A stretch of DNA of 42,925 nucleotides, from contig VGOB01000012.1 in the NCBI GenBank assembly GCA_016865935.1, forward strand, positions 1 through 42,925, written 5' to 3'. Made by a program: the position numbers and the translations under genes. Numbering within the stretch: position 1 is the stretch's first letter; each line of letters opens with the position of its first letter. The stretch comes from Chloroflexota bacterium. GTDB lineage: Bacteria; Chloroflexota; Anaerolineae; UBA4142. Positions 292 through 37,096 of this stretch are shown piece by piece. Under the pieces are notes generated by a model. It worked only from the letters and a program-made list of their open reading frames with translations. It searched no databases and had not been told where the DNA came from.

Positions 292-3200
292 TCACTGCAC
301 TTCCAATGTCCCCCACCCGCCTAGCATTTCATCCAGCGAACTTTGCACCTGCGCGTAACTCGTCGAGTGATTGGGAAAATCGAGTTGGACGACGCCTTGC
401 GGATTCGGCACGTAGAATGTAAAACGATCACGTCCGTCTGCGCTGGCTAACAGCGCGAGCAATTCGCGCATCCGGCGCAAATCCTCATCGTAATCGTTCG
501 AGCGCGCCAAAAAGATGCGCAGATGCCGCGCGGCTTGATATCGCGCCGCCGCTTCCATCACGCGCGCGGGCTCCGCAGGCGGCGCGTACATTACACCGTT
601 CCCGCCATTCCGACCGCCGACTGCCGACGGTTGACCGTTGACCGCTGATGGCTGATCGCTGACGGCTGACGGGGGATGGCTGACCGCTGATCGCTGATTG
701 CTGATCTCTGGCTCGAACGCATCTCCCGCAAACGGATCGATCTCCGCGAGTGCCGCTTCCGCTTCATCCGGCATCGCGTACTGCACAGCTGACGGCTGAC
801 CGCCGACGGCTGACCGCTGATCGCTGACCGCTGACGGCTGGGTCGCATCATCCGTCGGAATTTGATATTCCTCCGCTGAATCGCACAGCACCTGGATTTT
901 TCCGTCGCGCAATTCCACTTTGCCCTTGACGAGCAACAGCGCATCGTTGCGCCACAACTCGCGCGTCCGCTCGAACGTCTTGGGGAAGATCGTGATCTCG
1001 GTCGCGCCCGACGGATCTTCCAGCGAAACGAACGCCATCGGATCGCCTTTTTTCGTCGTGATGACGCGCACGCTCGTCACGACGCCTGCGAGCGTGATTG
1101 TTTGCCGCGCCAGCGACTCGTCGAGTTGATTCGCGAAATGCGTCACGCGATTGCTGGAATTTTTTGCCAGGCGCATCAACGGATTGTCGGAAAAATATGC
1201 GCCGGTCAATTCTTTTTCGTCCGCGAGTTTATCGCGATTCGGGACCTCGGGTTCATCCGGCAGCGTGCCAAACGTATCCGCGCCTCCCCACCCCAGCCCT
1301 CCCCCGCTTGCAGGGGAGGGAGCGGCGCCGAACATCGAAAGTTGACCGCGATCGCTCGCTTGATGCGCGGCTTGCGACGCCGCCATCATCCGATCCAACA
1401 CTTTCAACAGTTGCGACCGGCGTCCGAATTGATCCATCGCGCCGGCTTTGATCAGCGATTCGAGCGCGCGGCGATTGACCGAGCGCAGATCGACGCGGCG
1501 ACAAAAATCGTCGAGCGATTTGAACGCGCCGGCTTTTTGGCGCGCGTTGACGATCACTTCCACCGCGCCGACGCCGACATTTTTGATCGCGCTGAGCGCA
1601 AAATAAATCCCCTGGCTGTCCGGCGTGATCGTGAAATTCACGTCGCTCGCGTTCAGATTCGGCGGCAGAATTTCAATACCCTTCCGTCGCGTCTCGCTCA
1701 CGAGCTGTCCTACTTTTTCGACGTTGCCGAGTTCCGTCATCAACAACGCGGTCGTATATTCGAGCGGATAGTGCGCTTTGAGAAACGCGGTCTGGCAGGT
1801 CAACACGGCATAGTTCGCGGCATGCGCTTTGTTAAATCCATAACGCGCGAAAAATTCCACGTCATCAAAAATCTGTTCTGCGATTTCGCGCGTGATGATG
1901 CCATGTTTTTCCGCGCGCTCGACAAACCGGTCGCGCTCTTTGAGCAGTTTCTCTTTATCTTTCTTGCCGACTGCGCGGCGCAACAAGTCCGCCTCGGAAG
2001 CCGTGTACCCGGCGAGTTCCATCGCGATCTGAATGATCTGTTCCTGATACACCATGATCGCGTAGGTCTCTGCCAGAATCGGCTTGAGCGCGGGATGACG
2101 ATACTGCACTTTTTCGACGCCGTGCAGGCGGTTGATGTAGTTTGGAATGTACTCCATCGGGCCCGGACGATAGAGCGAAATCGTCGCGACGATGTGCTCG
2201 AAGCGCTGCGGCTTCATCCGAGTCAGGACTTGGCGCATCCCCGATCCTTCGACTTGGAACACGCCGGTCACGTCGCCGCGCGCCAAAAGATCGAACGCTT
2301 TCGGATCGTCCACCGGAATATTGCCCAAACCGAATTCGACGCCGTGCCGCGCTTTGATCAACTCGCACGCGCGGCGCATAATCGTCAGCGACGCGAGTCC
2401 GAGGTAATCCATTTTCAGCAAGCCGACGCGTTCGAGCCAGTTCATCTCGTACTGCACGATCGGAAAGCCGCCGGGGTTGTCGCCCTTGGTCGGACGATGC
2501 AACGGCGCGTACTCGACGATCGGTTTGTCCGCGACGACGACGCCCGCCGCGTGCGTGCCGGCATTCCGCGCCACGCCTTCGAGCAAGCGCGCGTGGTCAA
2601 TCAACTTGCGAACGTAATCGCTCTCTTCGTACGCCTGCTTGAAATCCGGAATCTTTTCGAGACAATCGTCCAGTTTGACATTCGGTCCCGTCGGCAACAG
2701 TTTGGCGACGCGATCCACTTCGCTCAACGGATAATCGAGCGCGCGTCCTACGTCGCGGATGGACGCCTTGGCTGCCAGCGTGCCAAACGTGACGATCTGC
2801 GCGACGTTATCCTTGCCGTATTTCTGAACCGTGTACTCGATCAACTCGGCGCGGCGATCATCTTGAAAGTCCAGATCGATGTCCGGCATCGAGATGCGCC
2901 CTGGGTTGAGAAAGCGTTCGAAGATCAACCGATGCTGGATCGGATCGAGGTTGGTGATCCCCGCGCAGTACGCCGCCATCGAACCGGCGGCGGAGCCGCG
3001 CACGTTGAACCAGATAGTGCGCTCGCGCGCGGCGCGCAACAAATCCCACACGATCAAAAAGTACGTGTCGAATCCCATCGCGTGAATGACGCCCAATTCA
3101 TAATCGAGTCGTTCGCGCGCGGCGGGATTGCCGTTCGGATAATATTTTCGGAATCCTTGTTCGCACAAATGCCGCAAGTACGTTTCGGCGTTGAATCCAT

Positions 3201-4065
3201 CCGGCACCGGGAACTTGGGGAGATGGTACTCTTTGAAATCGAGATCGACGTTGCAGCGTTCCGCGACGAGCAAGGTGTTCGAAAGCGCTTCGGGCACATC
3301 GCGCCATAGCGCGCGCATCTCATCGGACGATTTCAAATAATAATCGTTGCCGTCCATTCGCATCCGCTTGGAATCGGTGACGACGGTGTTGGTTTGGATG
3401 CAGAGCAAAATATCTTGCGCGCCCGCGTCTTCGGGGCGCAGATAATGCGCGTCGTTCGTCGCGACGAGCGGCAAGTTGAATTCGCGCGCGAGCGCGATCA
3501 GGTCTTTGTTGAGATTCGCAAATTCGCCGATGGCGTGTTCCTGCAATTCGACGTAGAACCGATCCTGGAACACATCGCGGAACCAGCCGAGCGCGCGCCG
3601 CGCGTCTTCGACGCGACCCTCGGCGAGGAGGCGCGGCACTTGCCCCGACGGGCAGCCGGTCGTGCAGATCAGCCCCGCGCTGTGTTGCGCGAGCAAATCG
3701 CGATCGACGCGCGGGTAATAGTAGAATCCTTCCAATTGCGCCGCCGACGCGAGTCTCAAAAGATTTTGATAGCCGACATTGTTTTCCGCAAGCAGGAGCA
3801 AGTGGTGCGAGTTGCGATCCTCTTTGGCATCGCGATCCTTCATCGAATGTTTCGCCAGGTACATTTCGACGCCGATGATCGGCTTGATTTTTTCTGCTTT
3901 GCACGCGTCGTAAAATTCGATCGCGGCGAAGAGCGCGCCGTGATCGGTGAGCGCGAGCGCGGGCTGCTGCAATTCTGCCGCGCGCTTGGCAAGGTCTTTG
4001 GGATGCGGCAACCCGTCGAGCAGACTGTATTCGCTGTGGACGTGGAGATGAACGAAATCGGACAT
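292..4065 (-). CDS. dnaE: DNA polymerase III subunit alpha
   Basis: Replicative polymerase catalytic subunit. The 1257-residue product has an N-terminal PHP domain (HLHVHSEYSLLDGL, residues 6-19), the palm with catalytic aspartates in PDIDLDFQDDRR (about 392-403) and in KMDYLGL (about 550), fingers and helix-hairpin-helix regions, a beta-clamp-binding-like motif QLSMFG near 908-913, and an OB fold (ITLAGVVTSV onward, about 1000-1075). Typical DnaE proteins are 1150-1180 residues; the excess comes from three in-frame repeat insertions after the clamp motif: a PSPASGGGLGWG segment (about 915-928) and two S/Q-rich heptad stretches (about 1075-1093 and 1117-1152). None touches the catalytic core. 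The ATG at 4065 lacks a Shine-Dalgarno; its leader is a repeat hairpin below an extended -10 promoter. Confidence 0.97.
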   Translation of the reverse strand: MSDFVHLHVHSEYSLLDGLPHPKDLAKRAAELQQPALALTDHGALFAAIEFYDACKAEKIKPIIGVEMYLAKHSMKDRDAKEDRNSHHLLLLAENNVGYQNLLRLASAAQLEGFYYYPRVDRDLLAQHSAGLICTTGCPSGQVPRLLAEGRVEDARRALGWFRDVFQDRFYVELQEHAIGEFANLNKDLIALAREFNLPLVATNDAHYLRPEDAGAQDILLCIQTNTVVTDSKRMRMDGNDYYLKSSDEMRALWRDVPEALSNTLLVAERCNVDLDFKEYHLPKFPVPDGFNAETYLRHLCEQGFRKYYPNGNPAARERLDYELGVIHAMGFDTYFLIVWDLLRAARERTIWFNVRGSAAGSMAAYCAGITNLDPIQHRLIFERFLNPGRISMPDIDLDFQDDRRAELIEYTVQKYGKDNVAQIVTFGTLAAKASIRDVGRALDYPLSEVDRVAKLLPTGPNVKLDDCLEKIPDFKQAYEESDYVRKLIDHARLLEGVARNAGTHAAGVVVADKPIVEYAPLHRPTKGDNPGGFPIVQYEMNWLERVGLLKMDYLGLASLTIMRRACELIKARHGVEFGLGNIPVDDPKAFDLLARGDVTGVFQVEGSGMRQVLTRMKPQRFEHIVATISLYRPGPMEYIPNYINRLHGVEKVQYRHPALKPILAETYAIMVYQEQIIQIAMELAGYTASEADLLRRAVGKKDKEKLLKERDRFVERAEKHGIITREIAEQIFDDVEFFARYGFNKAHAANYAVLTCQTAFLKAHYPLEYTTALLMTELGNVEKVGQLVSETRRKGIEILPPNLNASDVNFTITPDSQGIYFALSAIKNVGVGAVEVIVNARQKAGAFKSLDDFCRRVDLRSVNRRALESLIKAGAMDQFGRRSQLLKVLDRMMAASQAAHQASDRGQLSMFGAAPSPASGGGLGWGGADTFGTLPDEPEVPNRDKLADEKELTGAYFSDNPLMRLAKNSSNRVTHFANQLDESLARQTITLAGVVTSVRVITTKKGDPMAFVSLEDPSGATEITIFPKTFERTRELWRNDALLLVKGKVELRDGKIQVLCDSAEEYQIPTDDATQPSAVSDQRSAVGGQPSAVQYAMPDEAEAALAEIDPFAGDAFEPEISNQRSAVSHPPSAVSDQPSAVNGQPSAVGGRNGGNGVMYAPPAEPARVMEAAARYQAARHLRIFLARSNDYDEDLRRMRELLALLASADGRDRFTFYVPNPQGVVQLDFPNHSTSYAQVQSSLDEMLGGWGTLEVQ
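611..712. repeat. Heptamer tract inside dnaE, unit like CTGACCG / CTGATCG
   Basis: About a dozen degenerate 7-nt units in one orientation. Since 7 nt x 3 = 21 nt, the translated strand gives heptad peptides such as DQPSAVN and GQPSAVG. The frame is kept throughout. Confidence 0.85.
787..840. repeat. Second heptamer tract inside dnaE, unit CTGACGG / CTGACCG
   Basis: Seven or eight degenerate copies of the same unit family as 611-712, separated from it by about 75 nt of dnaE coding sequence. Translated as SAVSDQR / SAVGGQP-type heptads. Confidence 0.85.
1283..1320. repeat. REP-like GC-rich palindromic insertion in dnaE
   Basis: A C-rich arm (CCCTCCCCC) and a G-rich arm (GGGGAGGG) around a short GCTTGCA centre. 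In frame with dnaE it encodes SPASGGGLGWGG just after the clamp-binding motif. This C-rich/G-rich palindrome is a common interspersed repeat in many bacterial genomes. Confidence 0.7.
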
Positions 4066-4070
4066 AGGGC

Positions 4071-4150
4071 ATCAATGAGCCAATTATCCAATGTGCCAAT
4101 GAACCAAACTTTTCGTAAGAGTTTGGCTCATTGGTTCATTGACTCATTGC
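4071..4150. repeat. Hairpin-forming repeat tract in the dnaE leader
   Basis: Units of the form CAATGAGC/CCAATGTG run one way, then after TTTCGTAAG the reverse complement (AGTTTGGCTCATTGG) runs back. The two arms can pair into a long imperfect hairpin occupying almost all the space between the dnaE -10 and its start codon. Confidence 0.75.
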
Positions 4151-4152
4151 CG

Positions 4153-4161
4153 ATTATAGCA
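4153..4161 (-). promoter_or_regulatory. Extended -10 promoter for dnaE
   Basis: TGCTATAAT on the minus strand (TATAAT at 4158-4153). No good -35 is seen 17 nt upstream, as is usual for extended -10 promoters. The transcript would carry about 80 nt of repeat hairpin before the ATG. Confidence 0.55.
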
Positions 4162-4252
4162 CAGATATTCTCGCGTGGCGCGGCGAATTTGACGATGCGC
4201 CGAAATTTTAAGGGAGTGTATTTCGCGGTGAAAATCGAGCCGTCGGGCTGAC

Positions 4253-4283
4253 TTGGCGCAATCGGCGCGTCTTGTGGTATAAT
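4253..4283 (+). promoter_or_regulatory. Promoter for the HEAT-repeat gene
   Basis: A perfect TATAAT at 4278-4283 with a loose TTGGCG at 4253-4258 (19-nt spacer). The -10 overlaps the first in-frame ATG (4282), which therefore cannot be translated from this promoter; this decides the start at 4306. Confidence 0.6.
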
Positions 4284-4305
4284 GCGCGCAGGAGAACAAC
4301 GGAGA

Positions 4306-5256
4306 ATGGCTCGTCGAAAACGCGCGGTGGTGAATTTTCAAGACGCGCTGACGCATTTGCAAGCTGATCGAACGCTGCTGCCCAGCGCGCTCAGCGCGTT
4401 GTCCGGCGCGGACAAAGATCAAGCCACTGGATTCGCGCGCGTGTGGAACCGTTTGCCGGTCGAACGGCGGCGGCGCGCCGCGCAGGAACTGATCGATCTG
4501 GCGGAAAAAAACGTCGAACTGGATTTCAACGCGCTCTTTCGCCACTTGCTCGACGATCCAGACGCGCGCGTCCGCGCGAACGGCATCGAAGGTTTGTGGG
4601 AAGATGAAGACGGCGCGCTCGTCAAATCGTTCCTCGCGTTTCTGCGCGACGATCCGGACGCGGGTGTGCGCGCGGTGGCGGCGGACGCGGTGGGACGCTT
4701 TCTTTTGCTCGCGGAGTACGGTCGGCTGGCGAATCCGTCCGCCGAAACGCTGGGCGAAGTTTTGCTGGCGACCGCGCGCGATCTGGGCGAAGACCTGGAC
4801 GTGCGTTGTCACGCCGTCGAAGCGTTGGGATATTGGAGCGATGAAATCGTGCGTTCGATGATCGCGGCGGCGTATGACGATGCCGCGCCGGAATTGCGCG
4901 CGAGCGCGATCGCCGCGATGGGTCACAGCGCGGACAAGTATTGGCGCGAAACGGTCGCCAACGAATTGCAATCGCCGGACGCGCGAACGCGCTTTCACGC
5001 CGCGCGCGCCATCGGCGAACTGGAGCATCGCGACGCGACCGAAGCGTTGATCGAATTGCTGGACGATCCGGATCGCGAAGTGCAAGGCGCGGCGATCACC
5101 GCGCTGGGACAAGTTGGCGGCAAGTTGGCGCAGCGCGCGCTGGCGCACGCCGCCGAATCGGACGACGAAGTGTTGAGCGCGCTCGCCGACGACGCGCTCC
5201 AGGAATTGGAATTCAACGACAATTCGGAATTCTTGCTGTTCGATTTGAAGGAATAG
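4306..5256 (+). CDS. HEAT-repeat protein
   Basis: A 316-residue all-helical solenoid. After a basic N-terminus (MARRKRAVVNFQDAL) there are at least six degenerate HEAT units with the typical LLDDPDxxVRxxAxxALG pattern (for example LLDDPDARVRANGIEGL, LRDDPDAGVRAVAADAVG, LDDPDREVQGAAITALG). Very acidic C-terminus (EFNDNSEFLLFDLKE). Such proteins act as binding scaffolds; no partner can be read from the sequence. The start was set at 4306 because it follows GGAGA at proper spacing while an upstream ATG lies within the -10 box. It is divergent from dnaE and monocistronic, ending at a MITE-like element. Confidence 0.85.
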   Translation: MARRKRAVVNFQDALTHLQADRTLLPSALSALSGADKDQATGFARVWNRLPVERRRRAAQELIDLAEKNVELDFNALFRHLLDDPDARVRANGIEGLWEDEDGALVKSFLAFLRDDPDAGVRAVAADAVGRFLLLAEYGRLANPSAETLGEVLLATARDLGEDLDVRCHAVEALGYWSDEIVRSMIAAAYDDAAPELRASAIAAMGHSADKYWRETVANELQSPDARTRFHAARAIGELEHRDATEALIELLDDPDREVQGAAITALGQVGGKLAQRALAHAAESDDEVLSALADDALQELEFNDNSEFLLFDLKE

Positions 5257-5261
5257 TCACA

Positions 5262-5370
5262 GTAGATCACAATTCTGTCATGCTGAGCGAAGCGAAGCAT
5301 CTCGCTGGACGCAAATTGCGAGATTCTTCGGCGCGGAAACCGCGCCTCAGAATGACAATCTGTGATGTAC
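5262..5370. repeat. MITE-like palindromic repeat, copy 1
   Basis: Inner arms TGTCATGCTGAGCGAAGCGA and CCTCAGAATGACA, outer arms GTAGATCACA and TGTGATGTAC. About 109 bp, no transposase. Shares its outer arms with copy 3 (34257-34371), unlike copy 2, so copies 1 and 3 are close relatives. Confidence 0.85.
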
Positions 5371-9180: not shown

Positions 9181-10545
9181 TTATTCCTTGATGATTCCTT
9201 TCGCCCGCCCGATTTGCGCGCGCACCGCGCCGGGTCCCGTCCCGCCGACGGTTTCGCGCGCCGCGAGCGCACGCGCGAAATCGAAAACGTCTTTCAGCGC
9301 CGCGTCAAACTCCGGCGCGATCGTCTTGTACGCGTCGAGCGATAAATCCGCCAGCGCGATCCCGCGCGTCTCCGCCAGTTTCACCGCTTCGCCCACGCGA
9401 CGATGCGCGTCGCGGAACGGGACGCCGCGCCGCACCAGGTAATCGGCAAGATCGGTCGCCAGCATCGCTGCGTCGAGCGCGGCGCGCATTTTATCGGCGT
9501 GGACGCGCAGCGTGCGAATCACGCCCGCCACAACCGGCAACAACGCGTCCAGCGTGTCCACCGCGTCGAACAACGGCTCTTTGTCTTCCTGCAAATCCTT
9601 GTTGTACGATGACGGCAATCCTTTCAACACGACGAGCAACGACATCAGATCGCCGATCAGACGCCCGGCTTTGCCGCGCGCCAATTCCATCGCGTCCGGG
9701 TTTTTCTTTTGCGGCATCAAACTCGATCCGGTCGCGTACGCGTCGTCCAGCGTGACGAATCCAAATTCGGCGGAGGAGTACAGCACCAGGTCTTCGCCCA
9801 AGCGCGAGAGATGCGCGCCGATCAACGCGGCGGCGAACAAAAACTCGGCGATGAAATCGCGATCGCTCACCGCATCAATGCTGTTGTCGCTGACGCGCGC
9901 AAACCCCAGTTCGCGCGCGAGAAAGTCGCGATCAATCCCCAGCGCGTTCCCCGCGAGCGCGCCCGCGCCGAGCGGCAAAACCGAAACGCGGGTGGCGCAA
10001 TCGCGCAGGCGCGCGTGATCGCGTTCCAGCATCCAAAAGTACGCCATCAACCAATGCGAAAACAAAATCGGTTGCGCGCGTTGCAAATGCGTATAGCCGG
10101 GCATCAACACGTCAAGCTGTTGTTCGGATTTTTCCAGAATGGCGGATTGCAAATTGCGAATGGCAAATTGCAAATTGCGGATCGTGTCTAGAACGAAGAG
10201 GCGCGTGTCGGTGGCGACCTGATCGTTGCGACTGCGCCCGGTGTGCAACTTGCCCGCGACCGCGCCGACGAGTTCGCCCAGGCGGCGTTCGACGGCGGTG
10301 TGAATGTCTTCGTCACTGGGTTGCGCGGCAAAAGTGCCGGCGTCGAATTCCTGCTCGACGCGCGTCAAGCCGTCCACGAGCGCGTCGCGTTCCATTTCGC
10401 TAATCAGATGTGCGCGCGCGAGCGCGCGCGCGTACGCGCGACTGCCGCGAATGTCCGCGGCGTACAATCGCCAATCGAAACGCAACGACGCGTTGAGGTA
10501 CGCAAAGCGATCGTCCATTTGTTTTGAAAACCGTCCGCCCCACAT
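9181..10545 (-). CDS. argH: Argininosuccinate lyase
   Basis: Last step of arginine synthesis: argininosuccinate to arginine plus fumarate. The 454-residue product begins MWGGRFSKQMD, the usual ArgH N-terminus, and holds TGRSRNDQVATDTRLF (about 103-118), MPGYTHLQRAQP and the superfamily signature GSSLMPQKKNPD (about 273-284) with the catalytic serine loop. Odd feature: near residue 122-136 the helix reads RNLQFAIRNLQSAILEK, because a 7-nt repeat (10141-10183) runs in frame through the gene; most homologues have an unrelated helix here. GGAGGA precedes the ATG. No other arg genes are in view. Confidence 0.97.
   Translation of the reverse strand: MWGGRFSKQMDDRFAYLNASLRFDWRLYAADIRGSRAYARALARAHLISEMERDALVDGLTRVEQEFDAGTFAAQPSDEDIHTAVERRLGELVGAVAGKLHTGRSRNDQVATDTRLFVLDTIRNLQFAIRNLQSAILEKSEQQLDVLMPGYTHLQRAQPILFSHWLMAYFWMLERDHARLRDCATRVSVLPLGAGALAGNALGIDRDFLARELGFARVSDNSIDAVSDRDFIAEFLFAAALIGAHLSRLGEDLVLYSSAEFGFVTLDDAYATGSSLMPQKKNPDAMELARGKAGRLIGDLMSLLVVLKGLPSSYNKDLQEDKEPLFDAVDTLDALLPVVAGVIRTLRVHADKMRAALDAAMLATDLADYLVRRGVPFRDAHRRVGEAVKLAETRGIALADLSLDAYKTIAPEFDAALKDVFDFARALAARETVGGTGPGAVRAQIGRAKGIIKE
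10141..10183. repeat. Heptamer tract inside argH, unit like CAAATTG
   Basis: Five or six degenerate 7-nt units in a single orientation (GGATTGC, AAATTGC, GAATGGC, AAATTGC). In frame it gives the repeated peptide RNLQFAI / RNLQSAI. Confidence 0.8.
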
Positions 10546-16824: not shown

Positions 16825-18459
16825 TCAAACTCCCAGCCATTTTAGCGCGATTTCAAAAATCGCGGTAGATTCTTTCGTCAGAGTATAAACCGAAAAGAAC
16901 AAGGGCGCAAACACGAGCGCAAGCGCCAACGCACGCGCGTTCGTCTCGCGCGTTAGCGCGCGCACGCCCAACCACGCGACAACGATCAGCGCGAGCAACG
17001 CGCCAAACGCGATCAGCGCGTTCGTTTCCATTCCCGCCGCGATGATCGGCGCGCGAATCGGACTGCCAGTACTCGCGACGAGCGGCTGCAACCACGCGGC
17101 AGCCACCGCGAGCGCGAACAAACCAAGCGAAATTGCGACCGCCGACCGCTGACCGCTGACTGCTATTTCGGTCGTCGGTCGTCGGTCGTCGGTCAATTGC
17201 GCGAACAACCACACCCAAAACAAACTATTCGCCGTTCCCAAGATCGCGTACACCCACCAATGCGCGTGATTCGTCCATCCGGCGTAGTACGGCGCGAGCG
17301 CGATGTACGTCGTCGCGACGAGCGCAAGCGTCACTAGATCGAACCGGCGTTTGGGCAAAAGCGCGGCGAGCAAGAACGGGAACAGCATCACGTAATAATA
17401 GCCCATCACTTTTTTCGATGTGAGAAAAAACGCGATGGCGATCAGCGCCGCAGTCAGATACACACTCCAGCCGCGCCGCGCGCCGATGAACGCGAGCAGC
17501 GTCGCGGCAAGCATCGTCACGATCGTCGTGTGGCGCAGAAAGAAAAAATCGCTCGTCAGCGCGTTCGGTTCCGCGCGCGTCAAACCCAAGAGCGCGACGA
17601 GCCAGGACGCGGTTTGCACCGGCACGTTCTCGACGTACGTCAAATTCATAAACACGAAATCGTCGGAGTGCAATAGAAACGGCAAACAAACGATAGTGAC
17701 GACGAGACTGAAAAGAGTTAGGGCAAGAAGCAAGTTTGATAGTTTGATAGTTTGATAGTTTGGCGATTGGCTAGTTCGAGGCGATTTAACTATCCAACTA
17801 TGCAACCATCCAACGATCCAACTCACAAACATCGGAATTGCAAACAGAATCGCGATTTGCTTGAACAGCACCGCCAGCGCGAGCGCAAGCGCGGGCAGAG
17901 CAACGTGGCGCGCGTCTTCGAACGATGCATAGGCAAGCAGAACGAAGACGAGCCACGCGCTTTCAAAATGCCCTTGCACCGCCGTATCGTAGAACGTGAT
18001 CGGGTTGAAGAGCCACAACAGCGCCGCCGCGCGCGCGATCGTTTCGTCGTTCGCTTGGCGCGCGACGCTGCGGTATAACACAAGCGCGACGCCGATGTCC
18101 GCGAGAATCGCCGGCACGCGCGCCCAGGCGTAATCGGGCAAGGCGCGCGTCAGATCGCCGAGCAGCAGCGCGAGCGCGGCGGCGAACGCGTACAGCGGCG
18201 GATAGGCGTAGGGCCAGGTCTGCGCCGCGCGCGAACGCGCGTACAGATCGAACGGCGCGGCGTCGTCGAAAAAAGTGCGCGCGGCGTGAATGAACGTTTG
18301 CACGTCCCACGTTTGCGAAAAATACGGATGGAGCGTCAGGGTCGCGGAAACGATCGCGCCGGCATAGACCAGCGCGCTCGCAATGAAAAAGACCGCGCGG
18401 GAGGAACCCACCGCGCGGAGTGCGACATTCGATTGATCGTTTGGCGCGTGCGATGACAT
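16825..18459 (-). CDS. GT-C-fold membrane glycosyltransferase (GT87/mannosyltransferase-like)
   Basis: About 544 residues with ten or more membrane helices. The first lumenal loop has WDVQTFIHAARTFFDDAAPFDLYAR, typical of polyprenyl-phosphate-sugar-using GT-C enzymes with an acidic residue after helix one, followed by WPYAYPPLYAF and LLWLFNPITFYDTAVQGHFES (PY and NP motifs of the GT87 type). Two 7-nt repeat tracts pass through in frame, giving SQSPNYQTIKLSN (about 230-245) and a DDRRPTTEIAVSGQRSAV loop (about 425-442); both fall in loops between helices. The ATG at 18468 lies inside the TATAAT box, so ATG 18459 is used here; the transcript would then be nearly leaderless. Confidence 0.82.
   Translation of the reverse strand: MSSHAPNDQSNVALRAVGSSRAVFFIASALVYAGAIVSATLTLHPYFSQTWDVQTFIHAARTFFDDAAPFDLYARSRAAQTWPYAYPPLYAFAAALALLLGDLTRALPDYAWARVPAILADIGVALVLYRSVARQANDETIARAAALLWLFNPITFYDTAVQGHFESAWLVFVLLAYASFEDARHVALPALALALAVLFKQIAILFAIPMFVSWIVGWLHSWIVKSPRTSQSPNYQTIKLSNLLLALTLFSLVVTIVCLPFLLHSDDFVFMNLTYVENVPVQTASWLVALLGLTRAEPNALTSDFFFLRHTTIVTMLAATLLAFIGARRGWSVYLTAALIAIAFFLTSKKVMGYYYVMLFPFLLAALLPKRRFDLVTLALVATTYIALAPYYAGWTNHAHWWVYAILGTANSLFWVWLFAQLTDDRRPTTEIAVSGQRSAVAISLGLFALAVAAAWLQPLVASTGSPIRAPIIAAGMETNALIAFGALLALIVVAWLGVRALTRETNARALALALVFAPLFFSVYTLTKESTAIFEIALKWLGV
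17137..17194. repeat. Two-armed heptamer tract inside the GT-C gene, unit TCGGTCG
   Basis: One arm of GACCGCT/GACCGCC units and an opposite arm of four GGTCGTC units, in frame with the gene and placed in a cytoplasmic or periplasmic loop. Confidence 0.85.
17733..17826. repeat. Two-armed repeat tract inside the GT-C gene, unit TTTGATAG
   Basis: Three 8-nt TTTGATAG copies, a TTGGCGATTGG-type middle and an opposite arm of CTATCCAA / CCATCCAA copies. It is in frame and gives the HSWIVKSPRTSQSPNYQTIK loop. Confidence 0.8.
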
Positions 18460-26979: not shown

Positions 26980-27876
26980 ATGTCATCCAACATCCAGCCC
27001 AAACCTCCCATTTGCTCCTACGAAAATTCGCGCTGGCGCACCGAGTTTTGGCGCGGACGGGATTATGAAGATCGCGCGGAACAGATCGCGCTGGCGCGGC
27101 TGTTGCCGCCGCGCGGCGCGCGCCTGTGCGAAATCGGCGCGGGGTTTGGGCGCCTGGCGGATTTTTACACCGGCTATGCGCGTGTCATCCTGCTCGATTA
27201 CGCGCACACGATGTTGCGCGACGCAGTCGCGCGCGGGCGCGGCGATCCGCGCTTTGTTTGCGTCGCCGCCGATCTGTACAATTTGCCGCTCGCCGACGAC
27301 GCGCTCGACATCGCGCTGACGGTGCGCGTGCTACATCACGTCGCGGATATTCCGCGCGCGTTCGCGGAAATCGCGCGCGTCGTCCGTCCGCAGGGCACGT
27401 ACCTTGCCGAGTTTGCGAACAAGCGGCATCTCAAAGCGATTTTGCGCTACGGCTTGACGCGCCGCGCGCCCAATCCGTTCGCGCGCGAACCGTATGAATT
27501 CGTCCAACTCAATTTCGACTTTCATCCGCGTTATATCGAAGAGAATTTGCGCGCGGTTGATTTCGTCATCAAAGACAAACGCGCGGTTTCGATGTTTCGC
27601 GTTGCGCGGTTAAAGCGGATCGTTCCCGCAAAAATTCTCGCCGCGCTCGATGGAATTCTCCAATCTCCAATCTCCAATCTCGATCTCTCGCCCAGCATTT
27701 TCTTGCGCGCCGAATCGCACAAGTCCGGCGCGCCGCGCCTCCACGAATCGCTGTGGCGTTGTCCCGTCTGCCATTCGACCGCCATCGTCGAAGCGCGCGA
27801 CGCGCTCACCTGCCGCGCCTGCGCGCGCGTCTATCCGATTGTGGATGGCATAATTGATTTCAAATCGCAAATGTAG
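26980..27876 (+). CDS. Class I SAM methyltransferase with C-terminal zinc ribbon
   Basis: A 298-residue protein. The SAM-binding core has CEIGAGFGRLADFY (motif I, about 50-63), VILLDYAHTML, AADLYNLPLADDALDIALTVRVLHHV and a REP-style EFANKRHLKAIL segment; type-11 methyltransferase fold. The C-terminal 40 residues form a Trm112-like zinc ribbon, CPVCHSTAIV and LTCRACARVYPIVDGIIDF. Fusions of a methyltransferase with this ribbon occur in sugar and lipid modification proteins; the substrate is unknown. A heptamer tract (27656-27688) runs in frame just before the ribbon, giving LQSPISNLDLSPS. The dnaN promoter lies in its last codons. Confidence 0.8.
   Translation: MSSNIQPKPPICSYENSRWRTEFWRGRDYEDRAEQIALARLLPPRGARLCEIGAGFGRLADFYTGYARVILLDYAHTMLRDAVARGRGDPRFVCVAADLYNLPLADDALDIALTVRVLHHVADIPRAFAEIARVVRPQGTYLAEFANKRHLKAILRYGLTRRAPNPFAREPYEFVQLNFDFHPRYIEENLRAVDFVIKDKRAVSMFRVARLKRIVPAKILAALDGILQSPISNLDLSPSIFLRAESHKSGAPRLHESLWRCPVCHSTAIVEARDALTCRACARVYPIVDGIIDFKSQM
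27656..27688. repeat. Heptamer tract inside the methyltransferase gene, unit CCAATCT
   Basis: Three perfect CCAATCT units and degenerate neighbours, single orientation, in frame at the linker between catalytic core and zinc ribbon. Confidence 0.8.

Positions 27877-36316: not shown

Positions 36317-37096
<780 letters not shown>

Follow-up and report, generated by a model that had tools for sequence, protein, structure and literature searches.

Dispersed heptanucleotide repeats and a REP-like palindrome inside the reading frame of dnaE in a Chloroflexota genome

The window, that is, the whole stretch of 42,925 nt that was analysed, comes from an uncultured Chloroflexota bacterium and carries on its minus strand an intact open reading frame (292-4065) encoding a DnaE protein of 1257 aa. 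Pfam domains were found in the order PHP, DNA_pol3_alpha, finger, HHH_6 and OB, and the best structural matches were solved Pol III alpha subunits. The elements that characterize DnaE1 (Pol III alpha), namely PHP, catalytic palm/finger, HHH, clamp motif, OB and C-terminal domain (CTD), are all present, ordered, in this single ORF. From the N to the C terminus, the clamp motif is followed by a palindrome, the OB fold, two heptamer tracts and the CTD, which begins at about aa 1181:

292-4065, minus strand: dnaE, DNA polymerase III alpha subunit, 1257 aa, the sole DnaE1 of the genome (Pfam, structure matches, dN/dS)
1330-1347, minus strand: clamp-binding-type motif GQLSMF, aa 907-912, conserved among family members
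1283-1322, minus strand: REP-like C-rich/G-rich palindrome translated as PSPASGGGLGWGG, aa 915-928, with a 10-bp perfect stem; missing at the homologous site in relatives (family alignment)
868-1101, minus strand: OB-fold domain (Pfam PF01336), aa 989-1066, between the insertion sites; pLDDT about 90
788-840, minus strand: heptamer tract 1, 7.6 units of CAGCNRT, aa 1076-1093, QPSAVSDQRSAVGGQPSAV, in the linker after the OB fold (TRF; synonymous-recoding test; low-pLDDT stretch)
611-705, minus strand: heptamer tract 2, aa 1121-1152, ISNQRSAVSHPPSAVSDQPSAVNGQPSAVGG, in the same linker as tract 1 and closer to the CTD (TRF, 632-705; in-frame test over 611-705)
295-525, minus strand: conserved C-terminal domain past the tracts, aa 1181-1257 (pLDDT about 90; family conservation; dN/dS about 0.10)

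This arrangement agrees with the original prediction, which had placed three separate in-frame repeat segments in the gene (two heptamer tracts and one C-rich/G-rich palindrome), all past the clamp motif, C-terminal and outside the catalytic core. A second intact dnaE, which by the same prediction would have marked this copy as decaying, was not found: the genome holds no other DnaE1, and the sole other match is a divergent DnaE2-like gene, a class found in relatives too. That match consists of two partial hits of 34-35% identity (query 5-633 and 594-1051), both ending at contig ends, which together look like one such gene split over the two ends.

Comparison of dnaE with that of the sister species G002 (NG86) gave dN/dS values of about 0.16 for the core (0.095/0.582), 0.36 for the linker (0.401/1.105) and 0.10 for the CTD (0.092/0.881). 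These ratios indicate strongly purifying selection on either side of the tracts. The decaying-duplicate hypothesis is not supported, given the single DnaE1 and the dN/dS of 0.10-0.16. Since the CTD is conserved across the family and has so low a ratio, it must be translated in frame beyond the tracts and be constrained.

Tract 2 is made up of about 13 degenerate units, CAGCNRT followed by CAACNGT/CGGCNGT, one of which is defective. The 17-base pattern CAGYNRTCAGYNRTCAG, with one mismatch allowed, matched 20 times in the window and never in 100 shuffles, which excludes a chance origin of the dnaE heptamers. Period-7 identity was 0.82 for tract 1 and 0.77 for tract 2, against maxima of 0.75 and 0.65 among synonymous recodings of the same peptides (0/5000 each); the periodicity therefore belongs to the DNA and not to the peptide. 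Both tracts thus consist of head-to-tail 7-nt units above chance, as do the short tandemly repeated repetitive (STRR) and long heptanucleotide repeats. No significant RNA folding of the tracts was detected (z -0.75 to -1.70). The predicted tryptic peptides spanning the DnaE tracts are SAVGGQPSAVQYAMPDEAEAALAEIDPFAGDAFEPEISNQR and SAVSHPPSAVSDQPSAVNGQPSAVGGR.

Genes are expected to exclude long simple repeats with a unit length not divisible by three. A heptamer is 1 mod 3, so that all phases are read within 21 nt and three frames give the same cyclic heptapeptide; as the original prediction had reasoned from 3 x 7 = 21, (CAGCGGT)n yields QRSAVSG in all three frames. The CAGCGGT strand is free of stops in every frame and its complement has TGA in all three. 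By deduction from the sequence and the genetic code, it is consequently the orientation of an inserted tract, not its phase, that decides whether a gene is closed, and total tract length sets the frame downstream.

The original prediction had put the protein at about 80-100 residues above the usual length. Within the same family, complete DnaE proteins range from 1233 to 1296 aa, so that 1257 aa is ordinary here; the figure probably came from comparison with the 1160-aa E. coli DnaE, which is shorter by about 97 aa, a difference shared by relatives that lack these particular repeats. Judged from the family alignment, the net gain over relatives is about 7-8 aa for the palindrome and 5-10 aa for tract 1, with none for tract 2. 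The OB-CTD linker, with boundaries set by script, is about 94-130 aa long in most family members, with or without heptamers, and longer in G013, where the value takes in some OB sequence.

In the alignment with near relatives, which the original prediction had proposed as a check, heptamer tracts are present at the second-linker position in seven of 12 family members (this genome, G000, together with G002, G004, G007, G009, G012 and G013) and absent there from the other five (G003, G006, G008, G010 and G011), so that it is not simply the case that relatives hold the same residues without DNA repeats. The units are CAGC in this genome and chiefly CAGT in the other carriers. In a core tree a single pair of non-carriers separates the carriers into two groups, support being low (0.53-0.62) within one carrier group; both one old gain followed by loss and two gains are possible. 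G002 has an additional insertion at the tract 1 site, and in G013 a different short repeat, CTCGCCACCAAAGGTGGCGCG, occurs twice near tract 2, from which the linker appears to accept repeats of several kinds.

CAGC units are used by G000 and G001 and are lacking in G002; in G000 and G002 the dnaE tracts match this usage. A species 'dialect' of tract units is only suggestive on these sequences, because G000 also has many intergenic CAGT tracts and the samples of other relatives are small.

The insertions occupy two linkers that are variable throughout the family, one joining the clamp motif to the OB fold and the other the OB fold to the CTD. For aa 840-1257, an AlphaFold2 model built from an alignment of 18 sequences had pLDDT below 50 at aa 908-942, 1071-1104 and 1106-1176, the stretches that hold the three insertion sites, and about 90 over the OB fold and CTD. 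The low confidence fits disordered linkers at these sites, although the shallow alignment could also cause it. Foldseek with the C-terminal model ranked Pol III alpha first with poor superposition, owing to the loose linkers.

The homologous tract position in two family groups, and the retention of a long linker with or without heptamers, could mean that selection on the protein maintains the tract residues within the DnaE linker, where they would serve spacing or partner binding. We regard this as unlikely: sequence, unit type and length vary between sister species, the five family members named above have no heptamer there, the DNA periodicity exceeds the needs of the peptide, and unrelated proteins of this genome share these peptides.

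A repeat with a non-triplet unit that lies in a coding frame, ahead of a domain which would be lost on frameshifting, is also reminiscent of simple sequence repeat (SSR) contingency loci. Adding or removing one or two units would shift the frame and switch off the DnaE CTD, giving reversible replicase variation; the 7-nt unit, the peptide identical in all frames and the conserved CTD directly downstream would suit such a switch. In one relative (G007; L221, G007:C41, about 2820-2910) the dnaE frame is indeed broken between heptamer tract and CTD, a break that may be real or an assembly error. This is, however, a single case in a draft MAG that is 88% complete, and the other relatives with a complete locus are in frame. 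Unlike SSR contingency loci, compared here by one genome per species, the units in dnaE are degenerate, with several CAGC types mixed, so that slippage should be rare, and the gene is a housekeeping one. Its CTD is under strong purifying selection, and losing replisome contact would be costly. Such a switch is accordingly improbable.

A contig of G001 (L219, G001:C21, about 2250-2480) fuses the start of a glycosyltransferase-like gene to a DnaE CTD through heptamer tracts. The junction is probably a chimeric assembly, or else a rearrangement at the repeats, and it serves as a warning that contigs can be falsely linked through heptamer tracts when metagenomes are assembled. That the dnaE tracts were themselves wrongly joined or expanded during assembly is very improbable all the same: at 53 and 95 nt they are below ordinary read length, the two flanks are parts of a single DnaE read in one frame and each is homologous to relatives, and independent MAGs have tracts at the same place.

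Two further observations were made on the relatives. In G004 (L041, G004:C278, about 4090-5324) a large insertion at DnaE residue 760 or so leaves the frame open, giving a 1768-aa ORF; it looks like an intein. Gaps around query aa 745-815 were also seen in the DnaE of G016, G023 and G028. G016, which belongs to the same order, matched two CAG-type heptamer patterns 885 and 1403 times, well above all other genomes searched. The hypothesis of a slippery polymerase, by which heptamers in dnaE would be tied to the heptamer load of the genome, was rejected, since G016, the richest in both patterns, has no clear tract in the dnaE linker and the core is under purifying selection.

The palindrome at 1283-1322 belongs, by its sequence and distribution, to a dispersed REP-like element. 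Its half GGGGGAGGGNTGGGGTGGGG, with one mismatch allowed, occurs in 10 copies in this genome and its reversed control in none; among the 40 genomes searched the half is present in 19, in up to 37 copies, and the reversed control is almost absent. It is thus a short palindrome dispersed in the genome and resembles REP elements in size (20-40 bp) and in its conserved half. The exact stem occurs only twice in this genome, in dnaE and in the glycosyltransferase-like gene L138, and both copies, unlike REP elements, lie within coding frames.

The distribution of heptamers across the genome was assessed in 98 stretches (1.98 Mb, 41% of the genome), a few of which were picked for holding hits and most by contig order; genes were called with a simple home-made codon-usage caller. 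Clean tandem tracts numbered 382 for period 7; the counts for periods 6, 8 and 9 were 4, 99 and 31, and a Markov control had no period-7 excess. Extrapolation from this sample gives about 900 period-7 tracts in the whole genome. Three consecutive CAGYNRT units matched 183 times in this genome and the reversed pattern 9 times, so that many dispersed tracts of one unit family are present, as in STRR and long heptanucleotide repeats.

The 382 tracts comprise 149 intergenic ones, 132 at gene edges and 101 lying more than 60 nt inside genes, in 65 genes. The original prediction had singled out dnaE as an exceptional case; it is one of about 65 tract-bearing genes in the portion sampled. Among 314 heptamer tracts there were 88 unit classes. 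In the CAGCGGT class 21 of 26 tracts are intragenic, as expected from the coding fraction. The CAGTATT and CAGTGTT classes had 0 of 13 tracts inside genes, all being outside them or at their edges (L119-L198 and the window).

The stop-free strand is the sense strand in 53 of 58 asymmetric intragenic tracts and the antisense strand in 5, whereas intergenic tracts divide 44:43. The bias is partly expected, because genes are called only as open frames. Repeat-tract peptides of DnaE recur in unrelated proteins of this genome, and in 22 of 28 tract-bearing proteins scanned (counted by reading) domain or homologue matches resume in the same frame past the tract. These proteins include SecA, with the tract before the SEC-C motif, ParB, with the tract between the HTH and dimerisation domains, Mfd, TrmD, NuoL, HflX, threonine synthase, two xanthine-dehydrogenase-like proteins (XDH), UxaC, a YjeF protein and an ABC ATPase, among others. 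Some tracts interrupt domains, which shows that they are tolerated in loops and not in linkers alone.

More intragenic heptamer tracts were seen in the window at 10137-10179, 17168-17194, 27657-27681 and 36728-36758; one lies between methyltransferase and Trm112p domains (gene at 26980-27876) and one within an ABC ATPase domain (36317-37096).

Long heptanucleotide repeats have been described as GGGGA(C/T)T in Nostoc and GGGAATC in Xanthomonas (PMC4692102), and TAACTGA heptamers in Beggiatoaceae and cyanobacteria (PMC4679880). In the latter source, Mrazek is cited for heptamers being the most abundant longer simple-repeat category in most genomes. Chloroflexus aurantiacus is listed as satellite-rich (PMC6749651). 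The present tracts are like cyanobacterial STRR in being short, with 7-nt units, dispersed in scores to hundreds per genome and of a repertoire that varies among related genomes. Published heptamer families are mostly intergenic, 68% in Nostoc, with just 7-11% intragenic in Xanthomonas (PMC4692102, PMC4679880). Unlike these, the present tracts are not mainly intergenic: 101 of 382 lie well inside genes, including those of core replication, secretion and repair, and many unit types coexist in one genome.

Rickettsia palindromic elements (RPE) lie in frame in unrelated genes, including metabolic ones, with the protein apparently still working (PMC10969869). The present repeats are likewise dispersed in frame within unrelated working genes, but RPE are palindromes of about 150 bp with a conserved peptide, whereas here the repeats are mainly non-palindromic heptamer tracts of about 25-95 bp. 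The dnaE tracts, of 53-95 nt and with no significant fold, are not RPE; only the dnaE hairpin, of about 40 nt, resembles a short RPE or REP in kind. No publication on heptamers in coding genes of Chloroflexota was found in a literature search, for which most subscription journals were outside the scope. What is new is the genome-wide scale and the core genes affected, more than dnaE itself.

Taken together, these results make it quite probable that dnaE holds pieces of two dispersed repeat kinds, degenerate CAGCNRT heptamers of the STRR or long simple sequence repeat (LSSR) type and a single REP-like palindrome, both tolerated where they are in frame, stop-free and in a flexible part of the protein. 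A tract would survive in a gene when its sense strand is free of stops in any frame, when the insertion adds a net length divisible by three and when it contributes a hydrophilic peptide within a flexible linker. The repeats in dnaE would then reflect the genome-wide load and not a role specific to the polymerase; the tracts would be tolerated passengers rather than functional parts, with lengths changing by slippage or by recombination between tracts. Local slippage alone fails to explain why a small set of unit types turns up repeatedly at scores of unrelated sites.

Two findings weigh against regarding the tracts as passengers. Their occurrence at the same linker position in seven of the 12 family members could reflect retention for a linker function, and the CAGC type is found in genes at the level expected from the coding fraction, which is unusual for a mere burden. 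A bolder reading, possible though doubtful, is that this family has an active process by which degenerate heptamers are written or homogenised throughout the genome, with species-specific units, in coding and intergenic DNA alike, and that genes are shielded only by the strand-and-frame filter. Dozens of conserved proteins, the replicase included, would then be in the course of being lengthened, and tracts would land repeatedly in the dnaE linker and be rewritten there to the unit type of each species.

Heptamers lie inside about 20 conserved proteins of the 28 scanned, and survival there would follow the rule of a stop-free sense strand, a net in-frame length and a flexible site. The family is a good natural system for studying the spread of heptanucleotide repeats, a question that dates from the description of STRR, and is also suited to asking how non-coding repeats become new protein linkers.

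Two minor observations concern the repeat units themselves. Period 8 was the second commonest tract class in the 1.98 Mb. A GA/TC step was present in 96% of the 314 heptamer tracts (L119-L198 and the window), the commonest units, among them GAAGGAT, GACCGCT, GAATTGC, GAAAATC and GAACCTT, mostly reading (Y)GA(M)NNN; the published heptamers TAACTGA and GGGAATC also contain this step.
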